Part shown: in pieces, positions 119 through 33,714 of the stretch
Numbering within the stretch: position 1 is the stretch's first letter
How the letters are laid out: each line of letters opens with the position of its first letter
Source of the DNA: Gallionellaceae bacterium
Lineage (GTDB): Bacteria > Pseudomonadota > Gammaproteobacteria > Burkholderiales > Gallionellaceae
Direction of reading: 5' to 3'
Assembly (NCBI GenBank): GCA_004297065.1
Contig: SCUU01000011.1
Coordinates: forward strand, 1-34,009
DNA length: 34,009 nucleotides
The notes under the pieces: model-generated
Told to the model about the DNA's origin: nothing
Databases searched by the model: none
The model's input: the letters and a program-made list of their open reading frames with translations, nothing else
Program-made: the position numbers and the translations under genes

Positions 119-460
119 TAGATGAGGAGAAGGACTAACGAACCCAGGAAAAAACACTTCATAATATCTTGGCAGGCTACCCGGATATTCTTCTTCCTTT
201 TCTTGCCCAATACCTGCTACTGATGCTGTTTCATTGCAAGCCTTATTGTCGCACTGCAAAAAAGCACTGAATCGAAGTTCGAGATCACGTCCCCTGTCTT
301 CAGGGTCTTCGCTTAGTCGTGCATAACCCGCCCCAGAAGGAAGAAAAGAAAAAGAATTGGGTTTAAGCACCAAATGCCCTTGACTGCATCGAGGACACAG
401 CCAGCGAGGTGCTTGGACGCGGTAGAGAGGAGAATTCCAAAGTGCGCGATTAACGGTCAT
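116..460 (-). pseudogene. Zinc-ribbon hypothetical protein, truncated by the IS3 element
   Basis: The 114-residue frame starts at ATG 460 and has two Cys pairs, CPRC (about residues 22-25) and CDNKAC (about 70-75), suggesting a zinc ribbon. The pattern NRALWNSP...W-x-CP-x-C...C-x4-C...RYYE-x-FFP resembles, from memory, the N-terminal part of DUF4145-type hypothetical proteins. In such proteins 'P-x-PH-L' leads into a longer C-terminal domain. Here the frame runs into the IS boundary: the last native codon is 119-121, and the stop TGA (118-116) consists of the terminal bases of the IS inverted repeat. The C-terminal domain is therefore lost. No convincing Shine-Dalgarno lies upstream of 460. 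Function is unknown; truncation is directly visible, family assignment is tentative. Confidence 0.6.
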
Positions 461-573
461 GTGCGGAATGGCTCATATAGATAGCGCAATGTACCGGAGT
501 CGAATTGTTTTGACTATGGCGGGCAACTTGTTGCCCACCATACGGTTTTGATTTTCGCTTTTCTCTCCCCTCA

Positions 574-695
574 TCCGCCACCGGGTAGCGGAGACTGGTC
601 AGGGGTAGTCGGCGAGGACTGTTTGAGCGCGTAGCGCGAGTTCCGCAGCCGCCTGACCAGTCGAGCAACGCAGGGAACCTCGAAGAGGTGGCGGA
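574..695. repeat. Nested inverted repeat
   Basis: Outer arms tccgccacc (574-582) and ggtggcgga (687-695) enclose inner arms gactggtcagg (593-603) and cctgaccagtc (652-662). All are perfect complements. The arrangement would fold into a long cruciform or RNA hairpin with a GC-rich apical loop. It resembles intergenic repeats scattered through betaproteobacterial genomes rather than a coding or regulatory site of the flanking gene. Confidence 0.6.
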
Positions 696-718
696 TTGGG
701 GTCGCCTTTTCTTGGGTT

Positions 719-772
719 ACTTTCTTTTTGGCGAAGCAAAAGAAAGTGACTAGCTGTCGGGCTACCCCCGAC
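719..772. repeat. Two adjacent hairpins of a dispersed intergenic repeat
   Basis: Arms actttctttt (719-728) and aaaagaaagt (738-747) form a 10-bp stem over ttggcgaag-like loop sequence. Immediately after comes gtcggg/cccgac (756-761, 767-772). The block 'ttacttt...ggcgaagcaaaagaaagt' is, to my recollection, common between genes in beta- and gammaproteobacteria. Confidence 0.55.
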
Positions 773-790
773 GGTTTTGGTTTGAATGAA

Positions 791-843
791 GAGGGAATGC
801 AACGAGCGTTCCCTCTCCCTAGCCCTCTCCCAGTGGGAGAGGG
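791..843. repeat. GA/CT-rich palindromic repeat
   Basis: Two successive stems are visible: gagggaa (791-797) with ttccctc (809-815), and ccctctccc (823-831) with gggagaggg (835-843) over a three-base loop. The 'ccctctccc...gggagaggg' unit is a familiar intergenic repeat in proteobacteria. It is related in composition, though not identical, to the homopurine palindrome found inside murB at 13825-13894. Confidence 0.55.
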
Positions 844-871
844 GACAAAACCCAGCGGGCTTCTCCCATCC

Positions 872-904
872 TTCGATACGGCTACGCTTACTCAGGACGA
901 ACGG
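872..904. repeat. Dispersed repeat (ttcgatacgg...aggacgaacgg type)
   Basis: The segment begins ttcgatacggctacg and ends ctcaggacgaacgg. I recognise it as the common 'CCGTTCGTCCTGAGTA...GTATCGAA' repeat of many betaproteobacterial genomes. It sits just downstream of the DUF815 ATPase stop codon (reading leftward), where it could act as a 3' RNA structure. Confidence 0.5.
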
Positions 905-909
905 TAAGG

Positions 910-1764
910 CTACATTCTCCCACACCAATCCTTGGCAAACTGCCCCGCCACTCTCCCGCTGCGCGAACCCCGCATCAACGACCACTGCAACGCCGCCGTG
1001 CGCACTTCATCCGTCATGCCCTGCTGCCAGCCGTGATGCGCCAGCCAGTGCCCCGCCACCGCCAGATATTCATCCTGCGTGAACGGATAAAACGAAATCC
1101 ACAAGCCGAAGCGCTCCGACAGCGACACTTTCTCCTCCACGCTCTCCGCCGGATGCACTTCGTCGCCGACGTATTTTGTGGCGAGGTTGTCCTGCATGTA
1201 GTCCGGCATCAGGTGGCGGCGATTCGATGTCGCGTAGATGAGCAGGTTGTCGGAGAACGTCACCAGGTCGCCGTCCAGCGCGGCTTTGAGCGCTTGGTAG
1301 CCGGGCTCGGCATCGTTAAAAGAAAGGTCGTCGCAATACAGGATAAAGCGCTCACTGCGCCCCTGCACGAGACCGACGATATGCGACAGGTCGATCAAGC
1401 CCTGCTTGTCTATCTGGATCACGCGCAAGCCTTGGTTGGCATATTCGTTCAGCAACGCTTTAACCAGCGACGATTTGCCCGTGCCGCGTGCGCCGGACAG
1501 CAGCACATTATTGGCTGTGCCGCCGTTCACGAATTGCTGCGTGTTCTGCTGGATGCGTTGTTTTTGATCGTCCACGCCGAGCAGGTCGGCAAGTGCGATG
1601 CGTTGAAAATTGGGGACGGGATGCAAGCTGCGTTGCTGGTGATCCCAGCGAAATGCGGCGGCGGCATGCCAATCGGGAGGCTGCGGCTGCGCGCCGGGCA
1701 ATACGTTTTCTAGGCGGGCAAGTAAGCCCTCAGCGCGAGTGAGGAAGTGGTCGAGTTTGTCCAT
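910..1764 (-). CDS. DUF815-family P-loop ATPase
   Basis: This 284-residue protein has a Walker A motif GARGTGKSS at about 91-99 and a Walker B-like LYCDDLSF at about 142-149, followed by a sensor-like YATSNRRHL segment. These are hallmarks of the DUF815 family (AAA-type ATPases, cytoplasmic, cellular role unclear). An open frame extends upstream to 1818, but the extra residues are translated from the repeat in the intergenic gap. The ATG at 1764 begins the conserved MDKLDHFL N-terminus. It is the last gene of the leftward secA-cNMP-argJ run, although a 146-bp gap with an inverted repeat separates it from argJ. Family assignment is firm; no substrate or partner can be inferred. Confidence 0.85.
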   Translation of the reverse strand: MDKLDHFLTRAEGLLARLENVLPGAQPQPPDWHAAAAFRWDHQQRSLHPVPNFQRIALADLLGVDDQKQRIQQNTQQFVNGGTANNVLLSGARGTGKSSLVKALLNEYANQGLRVIQIDKQGLIDLSHIVGLVQGRSERFILYCDDLSFNDAEPGYQALKAALDGDLVTFSDNLLIYATSNRRHLMPDYMQDNLATKYVGDEVHPAESVEEKVSLSERFGLWISFYPFTQDEYLAVAGHWLAHHGWQQGMTDEVRTAALQWSLMRGSRSGRVAGQFAKDWCGRM

Positions 1765-1781
1765 AACGCAAAACCTTTTTA

Positions 1782-1902
1782 TCCGCAGATTACACAGATT
1801 AACGCCGATTAAAACCAAAAAACTAATGGGCGACAGAACAACTCTTAAACTTCCGCATACCCTGCATGCACTTAATCTGCGTCAATCTGTGTAATCTGCG
1901 GA
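1782..1902. repeat. Inverted repeat in the argJ-ATPase gap
   Basis: The arms tccgcagattacacagatt (1782-1800) and its exact complement (1884-1902) are 19 bp each, and the similarity continues imperfectly inward (aacgccgatta against its counterpart near 1873-1883). The unit 'CGCAGATTACACAGATT' recurs as an intergenic repeat in many unrelated bacteria. It fills most of the 146-bp gap. No T-run follows the stem, so it is not a canonical terminator. Confidence 0.8.
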
Positions 1903-1910
1903 CAAGGGTT

Positions 1911-3128
1911 TTAGCTTCGATAACTCGCGTTGATCTTCACATAGTCGTAAGAGAAATCGCAGGTCCACAGCGTGGCGTTCGCCGCGCCGCGATTCAGTAT
2001 CACGCGGATGGTGATGTCGCTTTGCTGCATCACGCGCGCACCGTCTTCTTCCCGATAACTCTTTGCACGCCCGCCGCTTTCGGCTACCAGCACATCATCG
2101 AGATACAGCTTCAATGTCTCGACGTCGAGATCGCCCACTCCGGCATAACCGATGGCGGCGAGGATACGACCGAGGTTGGGATCGGATGCGAAGAACGCGG
2201 TTTTGACCAAGGGGGAATGCGCGATGGCGTAGCCGATTTTTTTGCACTCGGCTTCGTCTTTGCCGCCTTCGACCTGGATGGTGATGAACTTGGTCGCGCC
2301 TTCACCGTCGCGCACGATGGCTTGCGCCAGAATGGTGGCGACTTCGGTAATGACGGCTTGCAACGCGGCGCGGTTCGCCGCATCTATCGCCACGCCGCTC
2401 TTGCCGGTGGCGATGAGCATCAGCGCGTCGTTGGTGGAGGTGTCGCCATCCACGGTGATGCAGTTGAACGAACGGTTCGCGGCCTCGCTCACCATCTGCT
2501 GCAACAGCGGTTGCGCGATGGCGGCATCGGTGGCGATGTAGCCCAGCATGGTCGCCATGTTGGGATGGATCATGCCGGAGCCTTTGGACATGCCGGTGAC
2601 GGTGACAGTCTTGCCGTTGATCTGCACTTGCTTCGACACGGCCTTGGCGACGATGTCGGTGGTCATGATGGCTTGCGCCGCATCGAACCAGTTGTCGGCT
2701 TTCAGGTTTGCGATGGCCTGAGGCATGCCCGCGACGATCTTCTCGACGGGCAACGGCTCCATGATGACGCCGGTGGAATACGGCAGCACCTGCTCGGACG
2801 CACAGCCCAGCAGCTTGGCCAGTTCTGCGCAGGTAGTGCGCGCAGCAGCCATACCCTGCTCGCCGGTTCCGGCGTTGGCGTTGCCGGTGTTGACCAGCAG
2901 CGCGCGTATGCCTTTATTGGCGGCCAGATGCTCTTTCGCAACAGTCACCGGCGCGGCGCAGAAGCGGTTGGTGGTGAACACGCCCGCGACGGTAGCACCG
3001 TCATCCAGCTTGATGGCCAATACGTCTTTGCGGTTGGCGCGCTTGATGCCCGCTTCCGCCGTACCCAAAAAAACGCCCGCAACGGGCAAGAGTTGTGCCG
3101 CGACGGGCGCAGATAAATTCACCGGCAT
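1911..3128 (-). CDS. argJ: Bifunctional ornithine acetyltransferase/N-acetylglutamate synthase
   Basis: ArgJ moves the acetyl group from N-acetylornithine to glutamate in the cyclic arginine pathway and, in bifunctional forms, also acetylates glutamate with acetyl-CoA. The 405-residue length is normal. The self-cleavage site is visible as [11 protein letters not shown], with Thr119 as the expected N-terminal nucleophile of the beta chain. The oxyanion region [12 protein letters not shown] precedes it, and [14 protein letters not shown] follows. Start ATG 3128 is preceded by gaggaa. It lies 15 bases after the cNMP-like gene. Whether it is mono- or bifunctional cannot be read from the sequence; no other arginine gene is in the window. 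Confidence 0.95.
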
Positions 3129-3143
3129 GGAATTTTTCCTCGA

Positions 3144-3641
3144 TTAATAACGACCGTGGACACGATGGATGTAGTTGGTCATCTCGACGGATTGCGTGTT
3201 CATGCGGCGCACGATGCCGTGCACATGGCGCACGATGCCGCGCATCACGTAATACACGATGGCGGGTTGGGAGTTCAGCAGGGACTCGAAGCGCGAGCGT
3301 TCCAGCACCAGCACTTTGCTGTCGGTCTTGGCGATGGTGGTGGCGCTGATTTGCATGACATTGCCGCCGACGAAACCGATGATCCCGGCCAGATCGCCGG
3401 TCTGGAGCATGTGCAGGGTCATTTGTTCGCCGCCGGTATTGGCGGTCGCTTCCACGTCGCCGCTGCCCAGGATCAGCAAAGAGTCTTTCAGTTCGGTTTC
3501 GCCCGGCTTGAGGATGTATTCCCCAGCCTTGTATTCGCGCACCGTAATCAGGCTTGCCAGCAGCTCGATCTCGGAATCGCGCAACTCCTCCGACAAAGTG
3601 GAACAGCGCAATGCATTCAATACCAACTCATTCGTTACCAT
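3144..3641 (-). CDS. Small cyclic-nucleotide-binding-domain-like protein
   Basis: The 165 residues fit a Crp/Fnr-type beta-barrel (for example YKAGEYILKPGE, LLILGSGDVEA, HMLQTGDLAGIIGFVGG) plus the long helix after it (VYYVMRGIVRHVHGIVRRM). The protein then stops, so the helix-turn-helix DNA-binding domain of Crp/Fnr regulators is absent. In the phosphate-binding cassette, the Glu and Arg that hold cAMP in CRP are not evident: the segment reads GDLAGIIGFVGGNVMQISATTIA. Binding of a cyclic nucleotide is therefore doubtful. Start ATG 3641 has gggagag upstream. It is embedded between secA (30 bp away) and argJ (15 bp away), apparently co-transcribed. A single-domain sensor or adaptor role is inference. 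Confidence 0.8.
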   Translation of the reverse strand: MVTNELVLNALRCSTLSEELRDSEIELLASLITVREYKAGEYILKPGETELKDSLLILGSGDVEATANTGGEQMTLHMLQTGDLAGIIGFVGGNVMQISATTIAKTDSKVLVLERSRFESLLNSQPAIVYYVMRGIVRHVHGIVRRMNTQSVEMTNYIHRVHGRY

Positions 3642-3671
3642 TCGTTCTCTCCCCGTAGTCGTTAGGCAATA

Positions 3672-6395
3672 TCAACTCAATTTTCCGTGGCACTGCTTGT
3701 ATTTTTTCCCCGATCCGCACGGGCAGGGTTCGTTGCGCCCGACCTTCTCGCCGGATCGCACAAAGGGCTTGTGTTCGGCATCTTCCTGCTCCGCGTGGCT
3801 ATCCTGCGCCAGCGCCTCTTCATAAGCGGCGTGATGATACTGCACATTTTCGGGCGCGTGGGGGGCTTCAACAGCTTCAACTTCTTCGCTGCTGCGTATC
3901 TGCACATTCATCAATGTTTGCGTCACGTCGCGCTTGATGCTTTCCAGCATGTTGGCGAATAGCTCGAACGCTTCGCGCTTGTATTCCTGCTTGGGGTTTT
4001 TCTGCGCATAGCCGCGCAGGTGGATCCCCTGACGCAGGTGATCCAACGCGGCCAGATGCTCGCGCCAATGCTGATCCAGGCTGCCCAGCATCACGATGCG
4101 CTCGTAGCCGTGCATAATTTCGCCGCCGACGCTATCGACCTTGGCCTGGTATTGCTGCCGCCCGGCTTCTGCCACGCGCTCGCGCAGGCCGTCCGCATCA
4201 AGCTGCTTGTCCTGCTCCAGCCATTGCGCCACAGGCAGATGCAATTGGAACTCGGACACCAGCGCCTTCTCCAGCCCCGCCGCATCCCACTGCTCTTCCA
4301 TGCTGCCGTGCGGGAAATATTCGGCCACGGTGTCGGACAGCACCCCCTCGCGCATCGCGCTGATTGTTTCGGAAATATCGTCGCTTTCCAGCAACTCGTT
4401 GCGCTGCTGGTAGATCACCTTGCGCTGGTCGTTCGCCACGTCGTCGTATTCGAGTATCTGCTTGCGCATGTCGAAGTTGCGCGCCTCGACCTTGCGCTGC
4501 GCGTTCTCGATGGCACGGGTCACCCACACATGCTCGATGGCTTCGCCTTCCGGCAGCTTGAATTTATTCATGATCGCGGCAACGCGATCCGATGCGAAGA
4601 TGCGCAACAGCGGATCCTGTAGCGACAGGTAGAAACGGCTGGAGCCGGGATCGCCCTGGCGTCCCGCACGACCGCGCAACTGGTTGTCCACGCGCCGCGA
4701 TTCGTGACGCTCGGTACCGATGATATGCAGGCCGCCGCTGGCGACGACCCGCTCGTGCACCGGCTGCCACTCGGCGCGCAATTGCGCCACGCGTTGTTCG
4801 CGCGTAGCCACATCCAGACTCTCGTCCATGCGCACCAGTTCGATAGGTTTCTCGACGTTGCCGCCCAGCACGATGTCGGTGCCACGCCCCGCCATGTTGG
4901 TGGCGATGGTGATTGCCTTCGGACGTCCCGCCTGAGCGATGATCTCGGCTTCGCGCGCATGCTGCTTGGCGTTCAGCACCAGGTGCGGCAGCTTTTCTTT
5001 TTCCAGCAGCTTCGACAGCAGCTCGGAAGTCTCGATCGACGTCGTGCCCACTAATACCGGTTGGCCGCGCTCAAAGCAATCGCGCACATCGGCGATCACC
5101 GCCGCATATTTCTCGCCGGTTGACAGATACACCTTGTCCATCAAATCCTTGCGCACGGTCGGTCGGTGCGGCGGAATGATGACTGTTTCCAGGTTGTAGA
5201 TGGACTGGAACTCGAAGGCCTCGGTATCCGCCGTTCCGGTCATACCGGACAGCTTGTTGTACATGCGGAAATAATTCTGGAAGGTGATGGAAGCCAGCGT
5301 CTGGTTTTCTTTCTGGATCGCCACGCCCTCTTTGGCTTCGACCGCCTGATGCAGCCCGTCCGACCAGCGGCGACCGGACATCAAGCGCCCGGTGAATTCG
5401 TCCACGATGACCACTTCGCCGTTTTGCACGACATAGTGCTGGTCGAGGTGGTACAGGGAGCGCGCGCGCAAGGCGGCATACAGGTGGTGGATCAGCGTGA
5501 TATTGGCAGGGTCGTACAGGCTGCCGCCCGCAGGCAACAATCCGGCCTGCGCCAGCAATTGTTCGGCACGCTCATGCCCGGCTTCACTCAACAATATCTG
5601 GTGATTCTTTTCGTCCACACTGAAATCGCCTTCGGACTCTTCGGTCTCTTGGCGCACCAGATGCGGCACGATTTTGTTCATCTGCGTATACACATCCAGA
5701 TTGTCTTCGGCTTGGCCGGAAATAATCAGCGGCGTGCGCGCCTCGTCGATCAGGATGGAGTCCACCTCGTCGACCACGGCGAAATTCAGGCCGCGCTGGA
5801 AACGCTCGTCCGCTTGCGCCGCCATGTTGTCGCGCAGGTAGTCGAAACCGAATTCGTTGTTGGTGCCGTAAGTAATGTCGGCGGCATAGGCGGTCTGTTT
5901 ATCGCCGTGATCCATGTTCGACAAAATGACGCCGACCGACAAACCGAGGAAGCGGTACAAACGCCCCATCCATTCCGCATCGCGCGAGGCGAGGTAATCG
6001 TTCACCGTCACCACATGCACGCCCCTGCCGGACAGCGCGTTCAAATATGCGGGCAGTGTCGCCATCAGGGTTTTGCCTTCGCCGGTGCGCATCTCGGCGA
6101 TCTTGCCGTAATGCAGCACCATGCCGCCGATCATCTGCACATCGAAGTGACGCATCTGCAAAGCGCGCTTGCCGCCTTCACGCACCACGGCAAAAGCTTC
6201 CGGCAACAAGGCATCCAGCGTCTCGCCCTGCTGCACGCGCCGCTTGAACTGCACGGTCTTGCCGCGCAACTCATCGTCGCTCAACGCGGCGAGACCCGAT
6301 TCCAGTGCATTGATGGCATCTATGTTGCGGCGATATTGTTTGAGCAGGCGGTCGTTGCGGCTACCGAAGACGCTTTTCAGCAATTTGGAAATCAT
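3672..6395 (-). CDS. secA: Preprotein translocase motor ATPase SecA
   Basis: SecA drives unfolded preproteins through SecYEG by ATP hydrolysis at the inner membrane. The protein is 907 residues, close to the usual proteobacterial length. Walker A MRTGEGKT is at 102-109, and the [15 protein letters not shown] helicase motif is near 210. The arginine-finger region [12 protein letters not shown] follows, and the C-terminal zinc and SecB-binding motif [13 protein letters not shown] sits just before the end. Start ATG 6395 gives the standard [15 protein letters not shown]-terminus; its Shine-Dalgarno is weak. A terminator lies 36 bp upstream, so secA probably has its own promoter in or across that terminator. 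Unlike enterobacteria, no secM precedes it. Confidence 0.98.
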
Positions 6396-7437: not shown

Positions 7438-7857
7438 GTGCCGCACCGCCTGAATGACTTCCTAACTTCCAGCCGCGAACTGCGCCAGCTTGCGCACAAA
7501 GCGCAGCAACTCATAGCGCTGCAACGGCAGTTTGAGCACGTCGTCCCCCCCTCTTTAAAACGGGGCTGCCGCGTGATGCAACTCGACAGGCAGACACTGA
7601 CTCTGGCTGCGGATAACGGCGCAATCGCCGCAAAACTACGTCAAATGACTACAGAATTAGCGAGCAAACTCCGAGAGCGGGGCTGCGAGGTTACTGTAAT
7701 TCAGGTACAGGTGCAAGTTGGCAACCTCCCATATGCGCCGCCGCCCAAAGCACATCCGCTTAGCGCAACCGGCAAACACCAACTGGCCGAATTCGCCGAA
7801 AAATTGGCCGATTCGCCGTTAAAAGAAGCGCTGAGCCGCCTCGCAAAACGCAATTAA
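7438..7857 (+). CDS. dciA: DciA-like (DUF721) protein
   Basis: The 139-residue protein (RLNDFLTSSRELRQLAHKAQQL..., then VMQLDRQTLTLAADNGAIAAKLRQM...) fits the DUF721 fold. In bacteria lacking DnaC/DnaI this family, DciA, acts as loader or predecessor of the replicative helicase DnaB. A GTG at 7438 gives the expected N-terminus; no clear Shine-Dalgarno precedes it. It is the only plus-strand gene between 910 and 30959. It is divergent from the M23 gene, and its stop overlaps the stop of the facing small membrane-protein gene by four bases. Assignment is by length, pattern and the conserved lpxC-dciA-secA neighbourhood; sequence conservation of the family is modest. Confidence 0.75.
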   Translation: MPHRLNDFLTSSRELRQLAHKAQQLIALQRQFEHVVPPSLKRGCRVMQLDRQTLTLAADNGAIAAKLRQMTTELASKLRERGCEVTVIQVQVQVGNLPYAPPPKAHPLSATGKHQLAEFAEKLADSPLKEALSRLAKRN

Positions 7858-8054
7858 AGCAGTACCCGCCAAGCAATCAACACGTAGCGCTCCAGCAAAA
7901 ACAGCACACCGAACGCCAGCAGCATGACGATCACGAAGCGCGCCACTTGCCAGGCAAAACGCAAATAGCTCTGCTTGCGGGTAAACACATAGGCACCGCC
8001 GGACAGGACAATGATTAGCGCGGACAGCACCAGTAACAAACGCAATACCAGCAT
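7854..8054 (-). CDS. Small two-TM membrane protein of unknown function
   Basis: The 66-residue protein has two hydrophobic stretches (about residues 2-24 and 41-60) separated by a basic loop (FTRKQSYLRFAWQVAR). It is predicted to be an inner-membrane hairpin. ATG 8054 is preceded by ggagg at good distance, which argues strongly that it is translated. It lies 12 bp after lpxC, so it is probably the last gene of the dcw transcript. Its last four bases overlap those of the convergent dciA. I do not recognise a named family. Confidence 0.75.
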   Translation of the reverse strand: MLVLRLLLVLSALIIVLSGGAYVFTRKQSYLRFAWQVARFVIVMLLAFGVLFLLERYVLIAWRVLL

Positions 8055-8066
8055 GTGGCCTCCGTG

Positions 8067-8978
8067 CTAAACGGCTTGCAGTTGCAGACGCGAAAAATCC
8101 GGAGCTTCTTCAGGCGTATCGAAGGTAACGAATTCCCAGGCGGATTCGTCGGCCAGCAAAGCGCGACATAAGGCATTATTCAGCGCATGGCCGGATTTGT
8201 AGCCGGTGAACGCGCCGATCAGCGGATGCCCCAGCAGGTACAAATCGCCGATAGCATCCAGCACCTTGTGTTTGACGAACTCATCCCCGAAACGCAGCCC
8301 GTCGGGATTGATGACACGGTACTCGTCCATCACGATGGCGTTGTCCAGATTACCGCCCAGCGCCAGGCCCTGCGAGCGCATGTATTCGACTTCCTGCATA
8401 AAACCGAAAGTGCGCGCGCGGCTCACTTCCCGTATATAAGAATGTTCGCCCAGATCTACCGTCACGTTCTGCTTGGTATTGGCAAATACCGGGTGGGCAA
8501 AATTGATGGTGAAACTCAGTTTATAACCGTTGAACGGATCGAAACGCACCCACTTGTCCCCGTCCTTCACCTCCATCGTTTTTTTGATGCGGATGAATTT
8601 TCTGGCCGCGGATTGCCCGACGATGCCGGCCGATTGCAGCAGGAAAACAAAGGTGCCCGCGCTGCCATCCATGATAGGCAGCTCGGAGCTGCTCAATTCC
8701 ACGATAACGTTATCTATGCCTAATCCGGCGAGCGCCGACATCAGGTGTTCAACCGTCGCCACGCGCGCACCGCCGGCCTCCAGACAAGTTGACAGCCGCG
8801 TGTCATGCACCGCATGCGCTTCGGCGCGGATATCCACGGGGCGGGGCAAATCGATGCGGCGGAATACGATACCGCTATTAGCGGGCGCGGGACGCAAGGT
8901 CAGATAGACCTTTTCGCCCGTATGCAAACCGACGCCTGTCGCCTGTACCGTCGTTCTTAACGTGCGCTGCTGGACCAT
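8067..8978 (-). CDS. lpxC: UDP-3-O-acyl-N-acetylglucosamine deacetylase
   Basis: LpxC catalyses the committed, zinc-dependent deacetylation step of lipid A synthesis in the cytoplasm. Length is 303 residues, against about 305 in E. coli. The zinc ligands are visible as H78 in TVEHLMSAL and H237/D241 in [12 protein letters not shown], and the catalytic region [18 protein letters not shown] follows. Start ATG 8978 gives the canonical [21 protein letters not shown]-terminus; the upstream gagaga is a weak ribosome site. It closes the dcw cluster 82 bp after ftsZ, as in most gamma- and betaproteobacteria. In the gap I see only weak -10-like sequences, so a private promoter is possible but unproven. 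Confidence 0.97.
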
Positions 8979-9060
8979 ATTCTCTCTTCAACAAAACCCG
9001 ACAAACCGGCGCGCAGTTTAGCATAGCCGGAACGCACCCCCGGCCTGTACGCCGGATTGC

Positions 9061-10221
9061 CTAGTCCGCCTGCCTGCGCAAGAACGATGGGATATCCAGG
9101 GTATCGACGCCGGATTGCCTCATCGCTTCCACCGTGGCTTCGCGATGGCGATTGGTGCGCATCACGGCCGGCATGTCGAGTTCGCGGTAGTCTACCGACG
9201 GAACGTCGTGCGTGCCGGTACGCAATTGCATTTGCGGAACCAGCATGGGCTTGGGTTGCTTTTTGGAAGCGATTGCCCCCAGGCCGGTAGCCACGATAGT
9301 CACACGCAACTCGTCGCCCATGGATTCATCGAACACCGAGCCCACAATCACGGTCGCCTCCGATGCCGCAAACTGGAAGCAGTTCATCACTGCATGCAAT
9401 TCTTCCAGGGTCAGCGTGCTGCTGGAGGTGATGTTCACCAGCACGCCGCGCGCGCCGGACAGATCGACATCTTCCAGCAGCGGGCTGGCGATGGCCTGCT
9501 CTGCCGCTTTTTTGGCGCGATTTTCGCCGGTTGCCGTAGCGGCACCCATCATCGCCATGCCGTTCTCGGACATCAGCGTGCATACGTCGGCGAAGTCCAC
9601 GTTGACCATCCCGGGCACGTTGATGACTTCGGCGATACCCGCCACCGCGCCTTGCAGCACGCCGTTCGCGGCCTTGAATGCGGCGTGCAGAGTGGTCTTG
9701 CCGCCGAGCACTTCCATGAGCTTGGCGTTCGGCACGATGATGAGCGAATCGACATAGCTCGCCAGTTCTTCGATACCGTTTTGCGCCAGCGTCATGCGCT
9801 TGCCTTCGAACACGAACGGCTTCGTCACCACAGCCACGGTGAGGATGCCCATTTCCTTGGCCACTTGCGCCACTACCGGTGCCGCCCCGGTACCCGTACC
9901 GCCGCCCATACCCGCAGTAATGAACACCATGTTCGCACCCCGGATGATTTCGCCGATGCGCTCGCGATCTTCCTCGGCCGCAGCTTGCCCGACTTCAGGT
10001 TTGGCACCCGCGCCCAAACCTCTGGTCAACGCGGAACCGATCTGCAACTGCATGCGCGCCTTGCTGCGCTTGAGCGCCTGCGCATCGGTATTGATGGCGA
10101 TGAACTCGACCCCCTGCACGCCCTGTTCGATCATGTGGTCGACCGCATTGCCGCCGCAGCCGCCCACGCCGATCACCTTGATAACCGCCCCTTGTGGTTG
10201 TGCATCCATTAGTTCAAACAT
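9061..10221 (-). CDS. ftsZ: Cell division GTPase FtsZ
   Basis: FtsZ polymerises into the Z ring that organises division. At 386 residues it is a normal length. The tubulin signature GGGTGTG lies at 106-112, the N-terminal nucleotide loop [10 protein letters not shown] at 18-27, and the catalytic T7-loop region NVDFADV near 207-213. The C-terminal conserved peptide DIPSFLRRQ, which binds FtsA and ZipA, is present after a short variable linker. ATG 10221 is preceded by aaggag at ideal spacing, consistent with the high expression FtsZ needs. It is preceded by ftsA (63-bp gap, nothing notable in it) and followed by lpxC. Confidence 0.98.
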
Positions 10222-30959: not shown

Positions 30960-31118
30960 CTTAAAACCCCAATAATCATTCATACCGTTTACGCGCTCCG
31001 ATTATTGCAGGAATTTATTAATTAAGAAACCTCGCCCGCAAAACCTTATGCTTGAAGTTGCGGGAGAGGCGGGAGTAGCATGACGCCACAATGCATAAAA
31101 CGCAGGCGGGGGAACGCA

Positions 31119-32012
31119 ATGAAACGATGGGGCTTGTTATTGGCGATAGTGCTGCTGAGCGCTTGCGGCAAACAGGAGGAAAGCTACCGGCCCGGTTTCA
31201 GCGAACAGGCCGCCAACGGCACCAAAGAATACGTGGTCGGTATCCATCCGCTGCACAACCCCAAGCGCCTGTTCGAAATATATGGGCCTATCGTGGCCTA
31301 TGTCGAAGCCAACATTCCGGGAGCGCATTTCAGGCTGGAAGCTTCGCGCAACTATGAAGAATTCGAGAAAAAGCTGTATAGCGGCCATTTCGATTTCGCC
31401 ATGCCCAACCCGTACCAGACGGTGCGCTCGCTCAAGCATGGCTACCGCATTTTCGGCAAGATGGGCAACGACGAGGATTTCCGCGGCATCATTCTGGTAC
31501 GCAAAGACAGCGGCATCCGCACAGTCTCCGACCTCAAGGGCAAGAAGGTCGCTTACCCTGCCGCCACCGCGCTGGCAGCCACCATGATGCCGCAATATTA
31601 CCTGCATACGCACGGCCTCGATGTGAACCGCGACATCGAGAACCTGTATGTCGGCTCGCAAGAATCCTCCATCATGAACGTGCTGCGCGGCCATGTCGCG
31701 GCAGGCGCCACCTGGCCGCTGCCATGGAAGACCTTCGTCCGGGAGAACCCTGCCCTGGCGGGCCAGCTCGAAGTGAAGTGGCAGACCGGGACACTGCCCA
31801 ACAACGGCTGGGTGGTACGCAAGAATGTGCCGCCGGAACTGGCGGCCCGGTTTGCCGCGCTGCTGTTCGGTTTAGAGGTAAGCGCGCGCGGGAAAGATAT
31901 GCTCGCGCATCTGCCCATCTCCAGGTTCGAAGTTGCGACGGAGACAACTTATGAGCCGGTGCGGGAATTTCTGAAAATTTTCTCTGCAACAGTGCGGCCT
32001 ATCGAATACTGA
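31119..32012 (+). CDS. PhnD-like substrate-binding lipoprotein
   Basis: From ATG 31119 (gggggа-type purine run seven bases upstream) the 297-residue protein has a basic start, a hydrophobic stretch and the lipobox LSAC with Cys16. Gly at +2 suggests export and outer-membrane sorting. The body (VVGIHPLHNPKRLFEIYGPIV, FDFAMPNPYQTV, DLKGKKVAYPAATALAAT, GHVAAGATWPLPWKTF) fits the PhnD/periplasmic-binding type 2 family used for phosphate, phosphite or phosphonate. No ABC permease or ATPase gene is nearby. Instead a diguanylate cyclase gene follows after four bases, suggesting a sensing rather than uptake role (inference). The frame open from 31080 lacks a ribosome site. The ligand cannot be told from sequence. 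Confidence 0.88.
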   Translation: MKRWGLLLAIVLLSACGKQEESYRPGFSEQAANGTKEYVVGIHPLHNPKRLFEIYGPIVAYVEANIPGAHFRLEASRNYEEFEKKLYSGHFDFAMPNPYQTVRSLKHGYRIFGKMGNDEDFRGIILVRKDSGIRTVSDLKGKKVAYPAATALAATMMPQYYLHTHGLDVNRDIENLYVGSQESSIMNVLRGHVAAGATWPLPWKTFVRENPALAGQLEVKWQTGTLPNNGWVVRKNVPPELAARFAALLFGLEVSARGKDMLAHLPISRFEVATETTYEPVREFLKIFSATVRPIEY

Positions 32013-32016
32013 ACCC

Positions 32017-33714
32017 ATGAATCTCCGCTCAAAAATTTTCGGTTTCTGGCACCGCTCAATCCGCGGGCAATTGATTGCCGGGTTCAGTCTCGCCGCGCTT
32101 GTTCTGCTGGTTGGATTCGGCTATTTGCTGCTCAAACAGCAACGCGATTTTTTGCATCATTTCGGCGAAGAGCGCACCGAATCTTTGGCGCATGCACTTT
32201 CCATCGGCGGCACCTCCTGGGTGTTGGCCAACGATCTGGTCGGCTTGCAGGAAGTCGTGCAGGGATTTGCGACAACGCCCGATCTGCAACGCGCCTATTT
32301 CCTGAACACGCGCGGCGAAGTGCTGGCCTCGACCAAACCGGAGGAAATCGGGTTTTTCGTAACCGATCCGGTTAGCCGCGACATGCTGGCCTCGACTTCC
32401 AGAGAGGCAATTACGCTGACGAATCAGCACATGATCGTCGTGTCTCATCCCGTCATTGCAGGCGGGCGTCATCTGGGCTGGCTGCGTATCGAAATGACGC
32501 GCCACTCGGCGAATACGAATATGGGCGCACTGACCAAGACGTGGCTCGAATTCATGATTTTCGCCGTCCTGTCCGTATCGCTCATGGCGCTCATGCTGGC
32601 ACACCGGCTGACGCGCGGCCTGAATCACTTGATGCATGTTGCCGCCGAAGTGGAGCACGGGCGGGATGCGCTGCGCGCGGACATCGGGCGCGAGGACGAG
32701 ATCGGCGTGCTGGCGCGCCACCTGAACCGGATGCTGGATGCTATCGAAAAGCAGCGGCGGCTGGTCTATGCGAGCGAGGCAAAATACCGTTTTCTCGCCG
32801 ATCACATTTCGGACGTGATCTGGATCATGAATATCGCGACAAACCGCTGGGAATACATGAGCCCGTCGGTCAAGAACCTGCTCGGCTACACTGCCGATGA
32901 AGCCATGTCGTTGCCGCTGGAAAAAACGCTGACAGCCAAATCGCATGCCGACATCCAGAACTGGATAGCGGAACGCGGCAAATTATTTCTCGGCGATCCG
33001 AGTAGCGAGCATGTCTATATGGACGAACTGGAACAACGCTGCCGCGACGGCTCCACGGTGTGGACCGAGGTAACTGCCCATCTCGCCCGCAACGATTCCG
33101 GCGAACTAATCTTGCTGGGCGTCACGCGCAATATTTCGGAACGCAAAAAAACCGAGGAAAAAATCCGCAATCTGGCTTTTTACGATACCTTGACCAAGCT
33201 CCCCAACCGGCGCCTGCTGTTTGATCGCCTGGGGCTGGCCAGGTCGGCCAGCAAACGCAGCGGGCGTTATGCCGCGCTGATGTTCATCGATCTGGATAAC
33301 TTCAAACCGCTCAACGACAAACACGGCCACGATATCGGCGACCTGCTGCTGATAGAGGTGGCGCGCCGCATCGGCGGTTGCGTGCGCGAGGGAGATACCG
33401 TGGCGCGTTTCGGTGGCGACGAGTTCATCGTGATACTGGGCGAACTGACCGGCGACAGGGATGCGTCCATACTCCAAGCCGGCGGCGTGGCCGAGAAAAT
33501 ACGCTCGATTTTGGCCGAACCCTATGTGTTGAGCATATCAAAAGAGGGCGACGCCGAACTGCGCACGATAGAGCACCATTGCACCTCAAGCATCGGCGTC
33601 GTATTGTTCCTCAACAACGAAGGCAGCCCGGACGACATCATCAAATGTGCGGACACTGCGATGTATCGGGCGAAAGAGGCCGGCCGCAATCAAATTTGTT
33701 TTTCCAACTCCTGA
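32017..33714 (+). CDS. Membrane diguanylate cyclase with HAMP, PAS and GGDEF domains
   Basis: The 565-residue protein has TM1 (about 19-40), a periplasmic sensor region (about 41-175), TM2 (about 176-198), HAMP (about 197-247), PAS (about 252-375, with RNISERKKTEE as the closing linker) and GGDEF (about 383-560). The catalytic GGDEF is intact at 466-470, and the metal-binding Asp is in FIDLDNFK (421-428). An RxxD inhibitory I-site (R457-EG-D460) lies five residues before GGDEF. An active, feedback-inhibited c-di-GMP synthase is predicted. It starts four bases after the binding-protein stop with no recognisable Shine-Dalgarno, so translation is probably coupled. The periplasmic domain could contact the upstream lipoprotein (inference). 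Confidence 0.92.
   Translation: MNLRSKIFGFWHRSIRGQLIAGFSLAALVLLVGFGYLLLKQQRDFLHHFGEERTESLAHALSIGGTSWVLANDLVGLQEVVQGFATTPDLQRAYFLNTRGEVLASTKPEEIGFFVTDPVSRDMLASTSREAITLTNQHMIVVSHPVIAGGRHLGWLRIEMTRHSANTNMGALTKTWLEFMIFAVLSVSLMALMLAHRLTRGLNHLMHVAAEVEHGRDALRADIGREDEIGVLARHLNRMLDAIEKQRRLVYASEAKYRFLADHISDVIWIMNIATNRWEYMSPSVKNLLGYTADEAMSLPLEKTLTAKSHADIQNWIAERGKLFLGDPSSEHVYMDELEQRCRDGSTVWTEVTAHLARNDSGELILLGVTRNISERKKTEEKIRNLAFYDTLTKLPNRRLLFDRLGLARSASKRSGRYAALMFIDLDNFKPLNDKHGHDIGDLLLIEVARRIGGCVREGDTVARFGGDEFIVILGELTGDRDASILQAGGVAEKIRSILAEPYVLSISKEGDAELRTIEHHCTSSIGVVLFLNNEGSPDDIIKCADTAMYRAKEAGRNQICFSNS

Follow-up and report, generated by a model that had tools for sequence, protein, structure and literature searches.

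A PhnD-family lipoprotein gene conserved beside a Cache-receptor gene: a probable bipartite c-di-GMP sensor in a Gallionellaceae bacterium and its relatives

The window analysed here is an entire contig of 34,009 bases (SCUU01000011.1) from a Gallionellaceae bacterium. Its last two genes, both on the forward strand, encode a PhnD-family periplasmic binding lipoprotein and a membrane receptor with a diguanylate cyclase output. The two genes very likely (probability roughly 0.83) form one bipartite transmembrane sensor that steers the level of cyclic di-GMP (c-di-GMP), and they belong to a clade that is both real and discrete, within a type of bipartite sensor already known. In the proposed mechanism, the PhnD-fold lipoprotein would bind a small molecule in the periplasm and, in one of two states, dock on its partner receptor, the product of the next gene, at that receptor's single Cache domain. 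From there a signal would run through the second transmembrane helix, the HAMP domain and the PAS domain, changing GGDEF activity and with it the c-di-GMP level. In relatives, the same front end would act on enzymes of the GGDEF-EAL type or on histidine kinases, and a REC-HD-GYP response regulator is encoded beside some of these kinases.

Conservation and shared history of the pair

A preliminary description of this DNA had noted the gene pair with only four bases between the lipoprotein stop and the cyclase start, and both genes were confirmed at these positions. Its proposal that genomes be surveyed for the same pair was followed in three samples. Scanning species genomes with the lipoprotein gave 88 loci, the best 80 of which were kept (the named loci). 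An order-wide sample of 399 genomes contained matches at E ≤ 1e-15 in 106 genomes and at E ≤ 1e-50 in 31, including that of the window. A receptor gene with the same periplasmic domain lies behind the lipoprotein gene on the same strand in all 78 named loci with room for it and in all 30 loci fetched from the order-wide sample, the window among them. Over both sets this amounts to 108/108, while 2 of the 110 loci are too short to judge; the two genes overlap by 4 bases in 44 of the 108. A class-wide sample of 369 genomes contains 11 (the window's included) that score above 300 bits, with the next best at 146 or below, a break which indicates that the clade is discrete. Ten of ten further core loci from this sample again carry the receptor behind the lipoprotein; organisms may recur across the genome samples and the named set, so that the 108 and 10 loci are not all independent. 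Wherever the neighbourhood is visible the two genes are adjacent, without exception, which is more than chance.

The distribution of the pair is patchy: the order sample includes 12 further genomes from the family of the window, and six of them carry the pair at E ≤ 1e-50. No plasmid copies were found at E ≤ 1e-20. The class sample also yielded 19 loci of more distant relationship; some downstream receptor match is present in 16 of them, covering the periplasmic part in seven and mainly the second transmembrane helix and HAMP domain in the remainder. No receptor match adjoins the binding protein in the distant loci L120, L122, L124 and L132; for a further distant locus, L116, the listed frames do not include the binding protein. 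Several variants of the arrangement were also seen. Tandem PhnD-family genes precede a single receptor gene in L126 (2796-4796) and L059 (~1028-2823), and in the more distant L119 (4119-7947) and L125 (3530-7542) the receptor gene has a PhnD-family gene on either side, the L119 receptor being a GGDEF-EAL protein. In L040, a 488-base gap between the two genes holds a 128-residue frame (5947-6333), which we take to resemble GxxExxY proteins.

The trees of the binding proteins and of the Cache domains agree with r = 0.90 over 66 pairs, the best of 1000 shuffles reaching 0.24; L011 was left out, as was L104, which seems to duplicate locus L015. Output types change four times on the binding-protein tree and three times on the Cache tree. 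Three metagenome-assembled genomes contain two copies with differing output (L051/L062, L057/L085 and L066/L103), and their binding proteins group by output type, not with the copy from the same genome. In a fourth two-copy genome (L064/L071), both copies have one output type and group together. Shared inheritance explains part of the tree agreement. Mean column identity is 68% for the lipoprotein versus 45% for the first 255 receptor residues.

The binding-protein family raises the question of a transporter partner. In the window, rpiA, phoU and ppx are the upstream neighbours of the pair and no ATP-binding cassette (ABC) genes are among them; the contig stops 295 bases past the cyclase, and the downstream side is therefore unseen. 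By eye, the contig end (33746-34009) resembles a repeat together with the beginning of a mobile-element gene. The named loci, with flanks of up to 5 kb (772 kb in total), were searched by tblastn (E ≤ 1e-8) with the window's Ppx, PhoU and RpiA and with the PhnE of the same genome. A PhnE permease was found beside none of these 80 loci, a result in which PhnC was not searched and the downstream side of the window is cut. The lack of an ABC partner claimed in the preliminary description is thus upheld upstream of the pair and, for PhnE, near its relatives. With a receptor adjoining in all 108 loci, this strongly disfavours a lipoprotein that would be the binding part of an ABC importer encoded elsewhere and only incidentally placed beside a cyclase. 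Such an importer, suggested by the family name and by a PhnE-type permease in the genome, is highly improbable, the more so as the PhnE-type gene adjoins a PtxB-type gene of its own. A PtxB query on the same 80 loci retrieved the lipoproteins, a second copy in L059 and an extra PhnD-like stretch in L066 (9954-10667), lying some 1.2 kb downstream of the receptor gene and reaching near the locus end.

The lipoprotein pocket and the class of ligand

The lipoprotein matches the Pfam family Phosphonate-bd (PF12974) with 183 bits against a curated cut-off of 27, and its lipobox reads LSAC with Cys16; an alternative in-frame ATG upstream at 31080 would give a protein of 310 residues. It misses the cut-off of the NCBIfam PhnD equivalog (69 vs 261 bits) and that of the subfamily TIGR01098 (102.5 vs 112). 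The AlphaFold model (predicted local distance difference test, pLDDT, 89; 80 rows) has a type II binding-protein fold. Its nearest solved folds are PtxB (Z 30.1, root-mean-square deviation 2.1, 255 residues aligned) and PhnD1 (Z 29.2), with further matches to ArrX (27.4), AioX (26.7) and XAC2383 (24.8; PDB 5ub3, 5ub7).

Phosphite oxygens in PtxB are held by Tyr55, Tyr100, Ser130, Thr131, Ser132 and His160 (PMC5700983). HMMER alignment and a MAFFT alignment with the PtxB-type protein of the same genome place Tyr79, Phe121, Ala151, Leu152, Ala153 and Gln181 of the lipoprotein at these positions. Ala151 and Ala153 occur in all 66 core proteins and Leu152 in 65, with Val in one; Gln181, Trp199, Trp203, Trp221 and Asn229 are invariant in the 66. 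The counterparts of Trp199 were placed by counting along the alignments by hand, and the equivalence of AioX and PhnD positions was taken from PMC5908839. In 29 other proteins of the order sample, Ala151 and Ala153 are present in every case, and Gln181 and Trp199 in 23 each. The clade therefore has neither the Ser-Thr-Ser and His oxyanion site of PtxB and PhnD nor the Ser-x-Ser and His that, together with a Cys, mark the pocket of AioX and ArrX, since Ala-Leu-Ala stands at the Ser-x-Ser place and Gln at that of His. The Ser-Thr-Ser motif is kept in the PtxB-type protein of the same genome and also in L132, a distant protein with no adjoining receptor match that is nearest to a control and resembles transport proteins in this motif. 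The distant L120, L122 and L124, for which no receptor was seen, have Ala at 151 and Ala or Gly at 153, so that pairing cannot be read strictly from an Ala-type pocket. A chemoreceptor-like gene, judged by look, lies within 3 kb of the PhnD-family gene in L122 (PhnD-family gene at 4353-5243) and L124 (4882-5901).

The pocket bears directly on phosphorus sensing, which the preliminary description had proposed for a PhnD-family protein encoded near phoU and ppx and in which the lipoprotein would bind phosphate, phosphite or phosphonate and report it to c-di-GMP signalling. The phosphorus neighbourhood was rejected, as phoU, ppx, rpiA and phnE were found in none of the fetched flanks of the 80 named loci. 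The lipoprotein does have the fold and family of phosphite and phosphonate binders, it keeps the PtxB contact Tyr55 as Tyr79, and its Phe121 is as in Prochlorococcus PhnD1, but the Ser-Thr-Ser and His are replaced by residues that lack hydroxyl groups and are invariant or nearly so. Moreover, the genome encodes a canonical PtxB-type binding protein and a permease elsewhere. XAC2383, a protein of the same fold that reportedly prefers phosphate-containing ligands, speaks in favour of phosphorus sensing. With the oxyanion residues replaced and a separate PtxB-type protein with a permease at hand, a phosphorus-oxyanion ligand is unlikely, and the proposed link to phosphorus was not borne out. The clade appears no longer to bind an oxyanion in the PtxB manner; this reading of the residues is not certain, as main-chain groups at helix starts could still hold an anion. 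A phosphate, phosphite or phosphonate held as in PtxB or PhnD is probably not the ligand.

The PtxB-type protein (GDKASTSSHLIP) is encoded on a 3.9-kb contig of the same genome (C307, locus L135), where positions 178-3785 constitute a likely phosphite-use operon. Its other genes encode a permease of the PhnE type and a member of the D-2-hydroxyacid dehydrogenase family that is presumably a phosphite dehydrogenase; a further frame resembles, by look, a LysR-type regulator.

The loss of the oxyanion residues could also mean that no ligand is bound any more and that the lipoprotein now regulates the Cache domain in a purely structural way or according to the state of the envelope, much as YfiR is said to act on YfiN. 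CHASE8, a domain linked to YfiN, is indeed also matched (E ≤ 0.01) by 23 of the 76 aligned periplasmic regions of the receptors. This explanation is quite unlikely, since the positions Gln181, Trp199, Trp203, Trp221 and Asn229, several of them at or near places of ligand contact, never vary in the 66 proteins, which speaks for a ligand having been kept.

A further-reaching interpretation, for which we see an even chance, is that the clade left oxyanion binding altogether. The Ser-Thr-Ser and His site would now be an invariant pocket free of hydroxyl donors (Ala, Leu, Ala and Gln with conserved Trp and Asn). As a plug-in for ligands, the protein would have retained its Cache partner through exchanges of the output between cyclase, cyclase-phosphodiesterase and kinase, the last partly next to HD-GYP regulators, and one environmental molecule would drive c-di-GMP in iron-oxidisers, methanotrophs and methylotrophs. 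In place of the guess of phosphorus sensing, the analysis offers a testable statement, namely that the pocket of the clade is not of the phosphate type, and ligand screens should therefore widen. Given the invariant positions in the pocket and the number of relatives, a single purified protein could suffice to answer the question of the ligand.

The receptor and its outputs

The cyclase consists of a transmembrane helix, a Cache domain, a second transmembrane helix, HAMP, PAS and GGDEF (Table 1). The periplasmic domain claimed for it is a Cache domain, as sCache_3_2 is matched (E ≤ 0.01) by 75 of 76 aligned periplasmic sequences, the window's included, and the Cache region of the AlphaFold model (pLDDT 82) resembles WalK, CitA and other Cache domains. 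The window cyclase alone scores 22.7 for sCache_3_2, below the cut-off of 28.4, and its place in the single-Cache receptor class comes via the aligned relatives and the fold matches. Asp73, Gly76, Glu79, Asp117, Gly154, Trp155 and Arg157 are invariant across the 76 sequences. The intact GGDEF active-site motif marks the protein as a diguanylate cyclase, and an RxxD motif stands five residues ahead of it, which is the usual spacing of an I-site. Both features had been claimed before and are present, and they recur in all 18 complete GGDEF-only receptors, that of the window included.

The output varies among the relatives. A Pfam scan of ten chosen receptors found sCache_3_2 in nine and HAMP in nine, with one GGDEF, one GGDEF-EAL and six histidine kinase outputs (in part hybrid); two had no output domain, one of them being cut by the locus end. 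Labels assigned by our own phmmer thresholds left 27 of 108 receptors unlabelled, mostly cut by the locus end, and gave 27 histidine kinases, 20 GGDEF-EAL, 18 GGDEF and 5 unlabelled proteins among the 70 complete receptors. Three of these five were relabelled as histidine kinases, L090 from Pfam and L092 and L011 from their resemblance to L090, and L101 and L109 (a split frame) were left open. The 70 complete receptors thus comprise 18 GGDEF, 20 GGDEF-EAL and 30 histidine kinase proteins and 2 open cases; over the 78 named loci the labels are 30 histidine kinase, 21 GGDEF-EAL, 19 GGDEF and 8 open.

HD-GYP proteins are c-di-GMP phosphodiesterases, and an HD-GYP gene (one query, E ≤ 1e-5) neighbours 11 of the 30 histidine kinase loci and none of the 48 others. 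It lies directly behind the receptor gene in eight loci (L105, 8490-9515; L072, 8523-9566; L078, L082, L088, L093, L106 and L108) and upstream in three; the four of these 11 proteins examined with Pfam all combine REC and HD_5. GGDEF or EAL neighbours were found in 7/30 histidine kinase, 0/21 GGDEF-EAL, 4/19 GGDEF and 3/8 open loci. A c-di-GMP enzyme is accordingly in or beside the module in 51 of the 78 named loci (19 GGDEF, 21 GGDEF-EAL and 11 histidine kinase loci with HD-GYP). Since the outputs are GGDEF, GGDEF-EAL or kinases partly beside REC-HD-GYP, most versions seem to end at c-di-GMP. An exception is L062, whose neighbour is another kinase. In L102, from a Nitrospirae genome, the gene behind the module (7619-9349) encodes a REC-SpoIIE protein that also has an ATPase domain of kinase-like type, an output away from c-di-GMP.

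Conserved neighbours were considered as a clue to the ligand and rejected. The biggest flanking-gene cluster, with members at 42 loci, is apparently a mixture of signalling proteins, and the other clusters are tied to one output type or lineage, except for a 10-locus cluster with a single kinase-type member. A promoter and terminator scan of the region gave 1 promoter versus 1.7 in shuffled sequences and 5 terminators versus 3.4 (standard deviation 1.6), a result that was not used.

Several points weigh against a bipartite sensor of the proposed form. The contact between lipoprotein and Cache domain, the direction of control and the class of ligand are steps that we infer, and the Cache domain might itself recognise a separate ligand. 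Shared descent by itself would raise r, congruence being expected for neighbouring genes that are inherited together. A simple lipobox pattern is absent in 20 of the 78 named loci, many of them from Methylobacter, so that a lipid anchor is not general; some of these 20 are misses of the pattern and one is without its 5' end. One receptor, L101, is complete yet has no match to any known output domain. Across the clade, one periplasmic front end has been retained through exchanges of the intracellular output, which mostly stayed inside c-di-GMP signalling; the bacteria concerned oxidise iron or methane and are of environmental importance.

Table 1. Positions of the two genes and of their domains and key residues in the window
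Feature	Position	Strand	Detail
PhnD-family (PF12974) periplasmic binding lipoprotein, putative ligand-binding co-receptor	31119-32012	+	297 aa
A151-L152-A153 codons, counterpart of the PtxB STS oxyanion motif	31569-31577	+	PtxB contacts from PMC5700983
Q181 codon, counterpart of the PtxB phosphite-binding His	31659-31661	+	Q in 66/66 core proteins
W199 codon, counterpart of PhnD N175 and AioX D210	31713-31715	+	W in 66/66 core proteins
Membrane receptor with diguanylate cyclase output	32017-33714	+	565 aa
Periplasmic single Cache domain (~residues 41-175), likely lipoprotein docking site	32137-32541	+	sCache_3_2 alignment matches, fold matches
HAMP domain (residues 194-244)	32596-32748	+	PF00672, 39 bits
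PAS domain (residues ~256-375)	32782-33141	+	PF13426 / PF00989
GGDEF diguanylate cyclase domain (residues 387-559)	33175-33693	+	PF00990, 142.6 bits
I-site RxxD (residues 457-460)	33385-33396	+	motif positions
GGDEF motif (residues 466-470)	33412-33426	+	motif positions

Comparison with known systems

A binding-protein gene conserved beside the gene of a receptor with a periplasmic domain characterises bipartite sensors, and the pair shows this arrangement. A close parallel in composition is XAC2383-XAC2382 of Xanthomonas citri, which likewise joins a PhnD-fold periplasmic protein to a membrane diguanylate cyclase. The Cache domain of XAC2382 reportedly binds XAC2383, which is said to inhibit the cyclase and to prefer phosphate-containing ligands; the two genes are also said to be co-transcribed and to have homologues with other outputs. 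The ligands reported for XAC2383 are phosphate compounds, whereas the oxyanion site is replaced in the clade of the window. By fold and profile scores, XAC2383 is also not the nearest solved relative of the lipoprotein: its fold Z score of 24.8 lies below those of PtxB (30.1), PhnD, ArrX and AioX, and against the lipoprotein profile it ranks 14th (E 7e-6, positions 117-259), behind PtxB, PhnD, HtxB and ArrX and ahead of AioX. Teixeira et al. (2018, J Biol Chem) have already published the pairing of XAC2383 with a cyclase, and AioX provides a case in which a protein of the PhnD fold senses together with a kinase (PMC5908839). The suggestion of an undescribed system is consequently not supported. 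A literature search at the level of titles and abstract openings found no description of the pair in this clade; subscription papers were outside its scope, so that this absence says little.

AioX, ArxX and ArrX share the fold of the lipoprotein, serve sensing instead of transport and are clustered with a kinase gene of the AioS type. They differ in their kinase output and in binding arsenic oxyanions with a retained Ser-x-Ser and His; the AioX pocket residues Ser161, Ser163 and His192 are conserved in its ArrX and ArxX relatives (PMC5908839). PtxB and PhnD belong to the same fold and Pfam family, but their role is transport and their Ser-Thr-Ser and His site is intact (PMC5700983). BstB of Methylococcus is a PF12974 protein that binds sterol, a ligand that is not an oxyanion, and hence shows that this family can change its ligand class; it differs in serving sterol transport, with no signalling receptor mentioned in the passages covered (PMC10942540). 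The structure 7t1m, titled as a bacterial sterol transporter and corresponding to BstB if it is the same protein, is a weaker fold match (Z 20.5).

NspS-MbaA of Vibrio cholerae, to which the preliminary description had likened the pair, resembles it in that a periplasmic binding protein controls a c-di-GMP enzyme and differs in its polyamine ligand. NspS reportedly comes from another binding-protein family, and MbaA is said to be a GGDEF-EAL enzyme. A co-receptor of this kind feeding a c-di-GMP enzyme is supported by the conserved pair and by the search that found no PhnE near 80 relatives. Receptors driven by binding proteins, cyclases included, form a general class (PMC9602780). It has been remarked that, of the binding-protein clan, only SBP_bac_3 has been studied in c-di-GMP networks (PMC8846402); we read this as referring to domains inside the c-di-GMP proteins themselves. 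What the clade of the window adds to this known kind of sensor is a rebuilt pocket and a place of its own among the PhnD-fold sensors.

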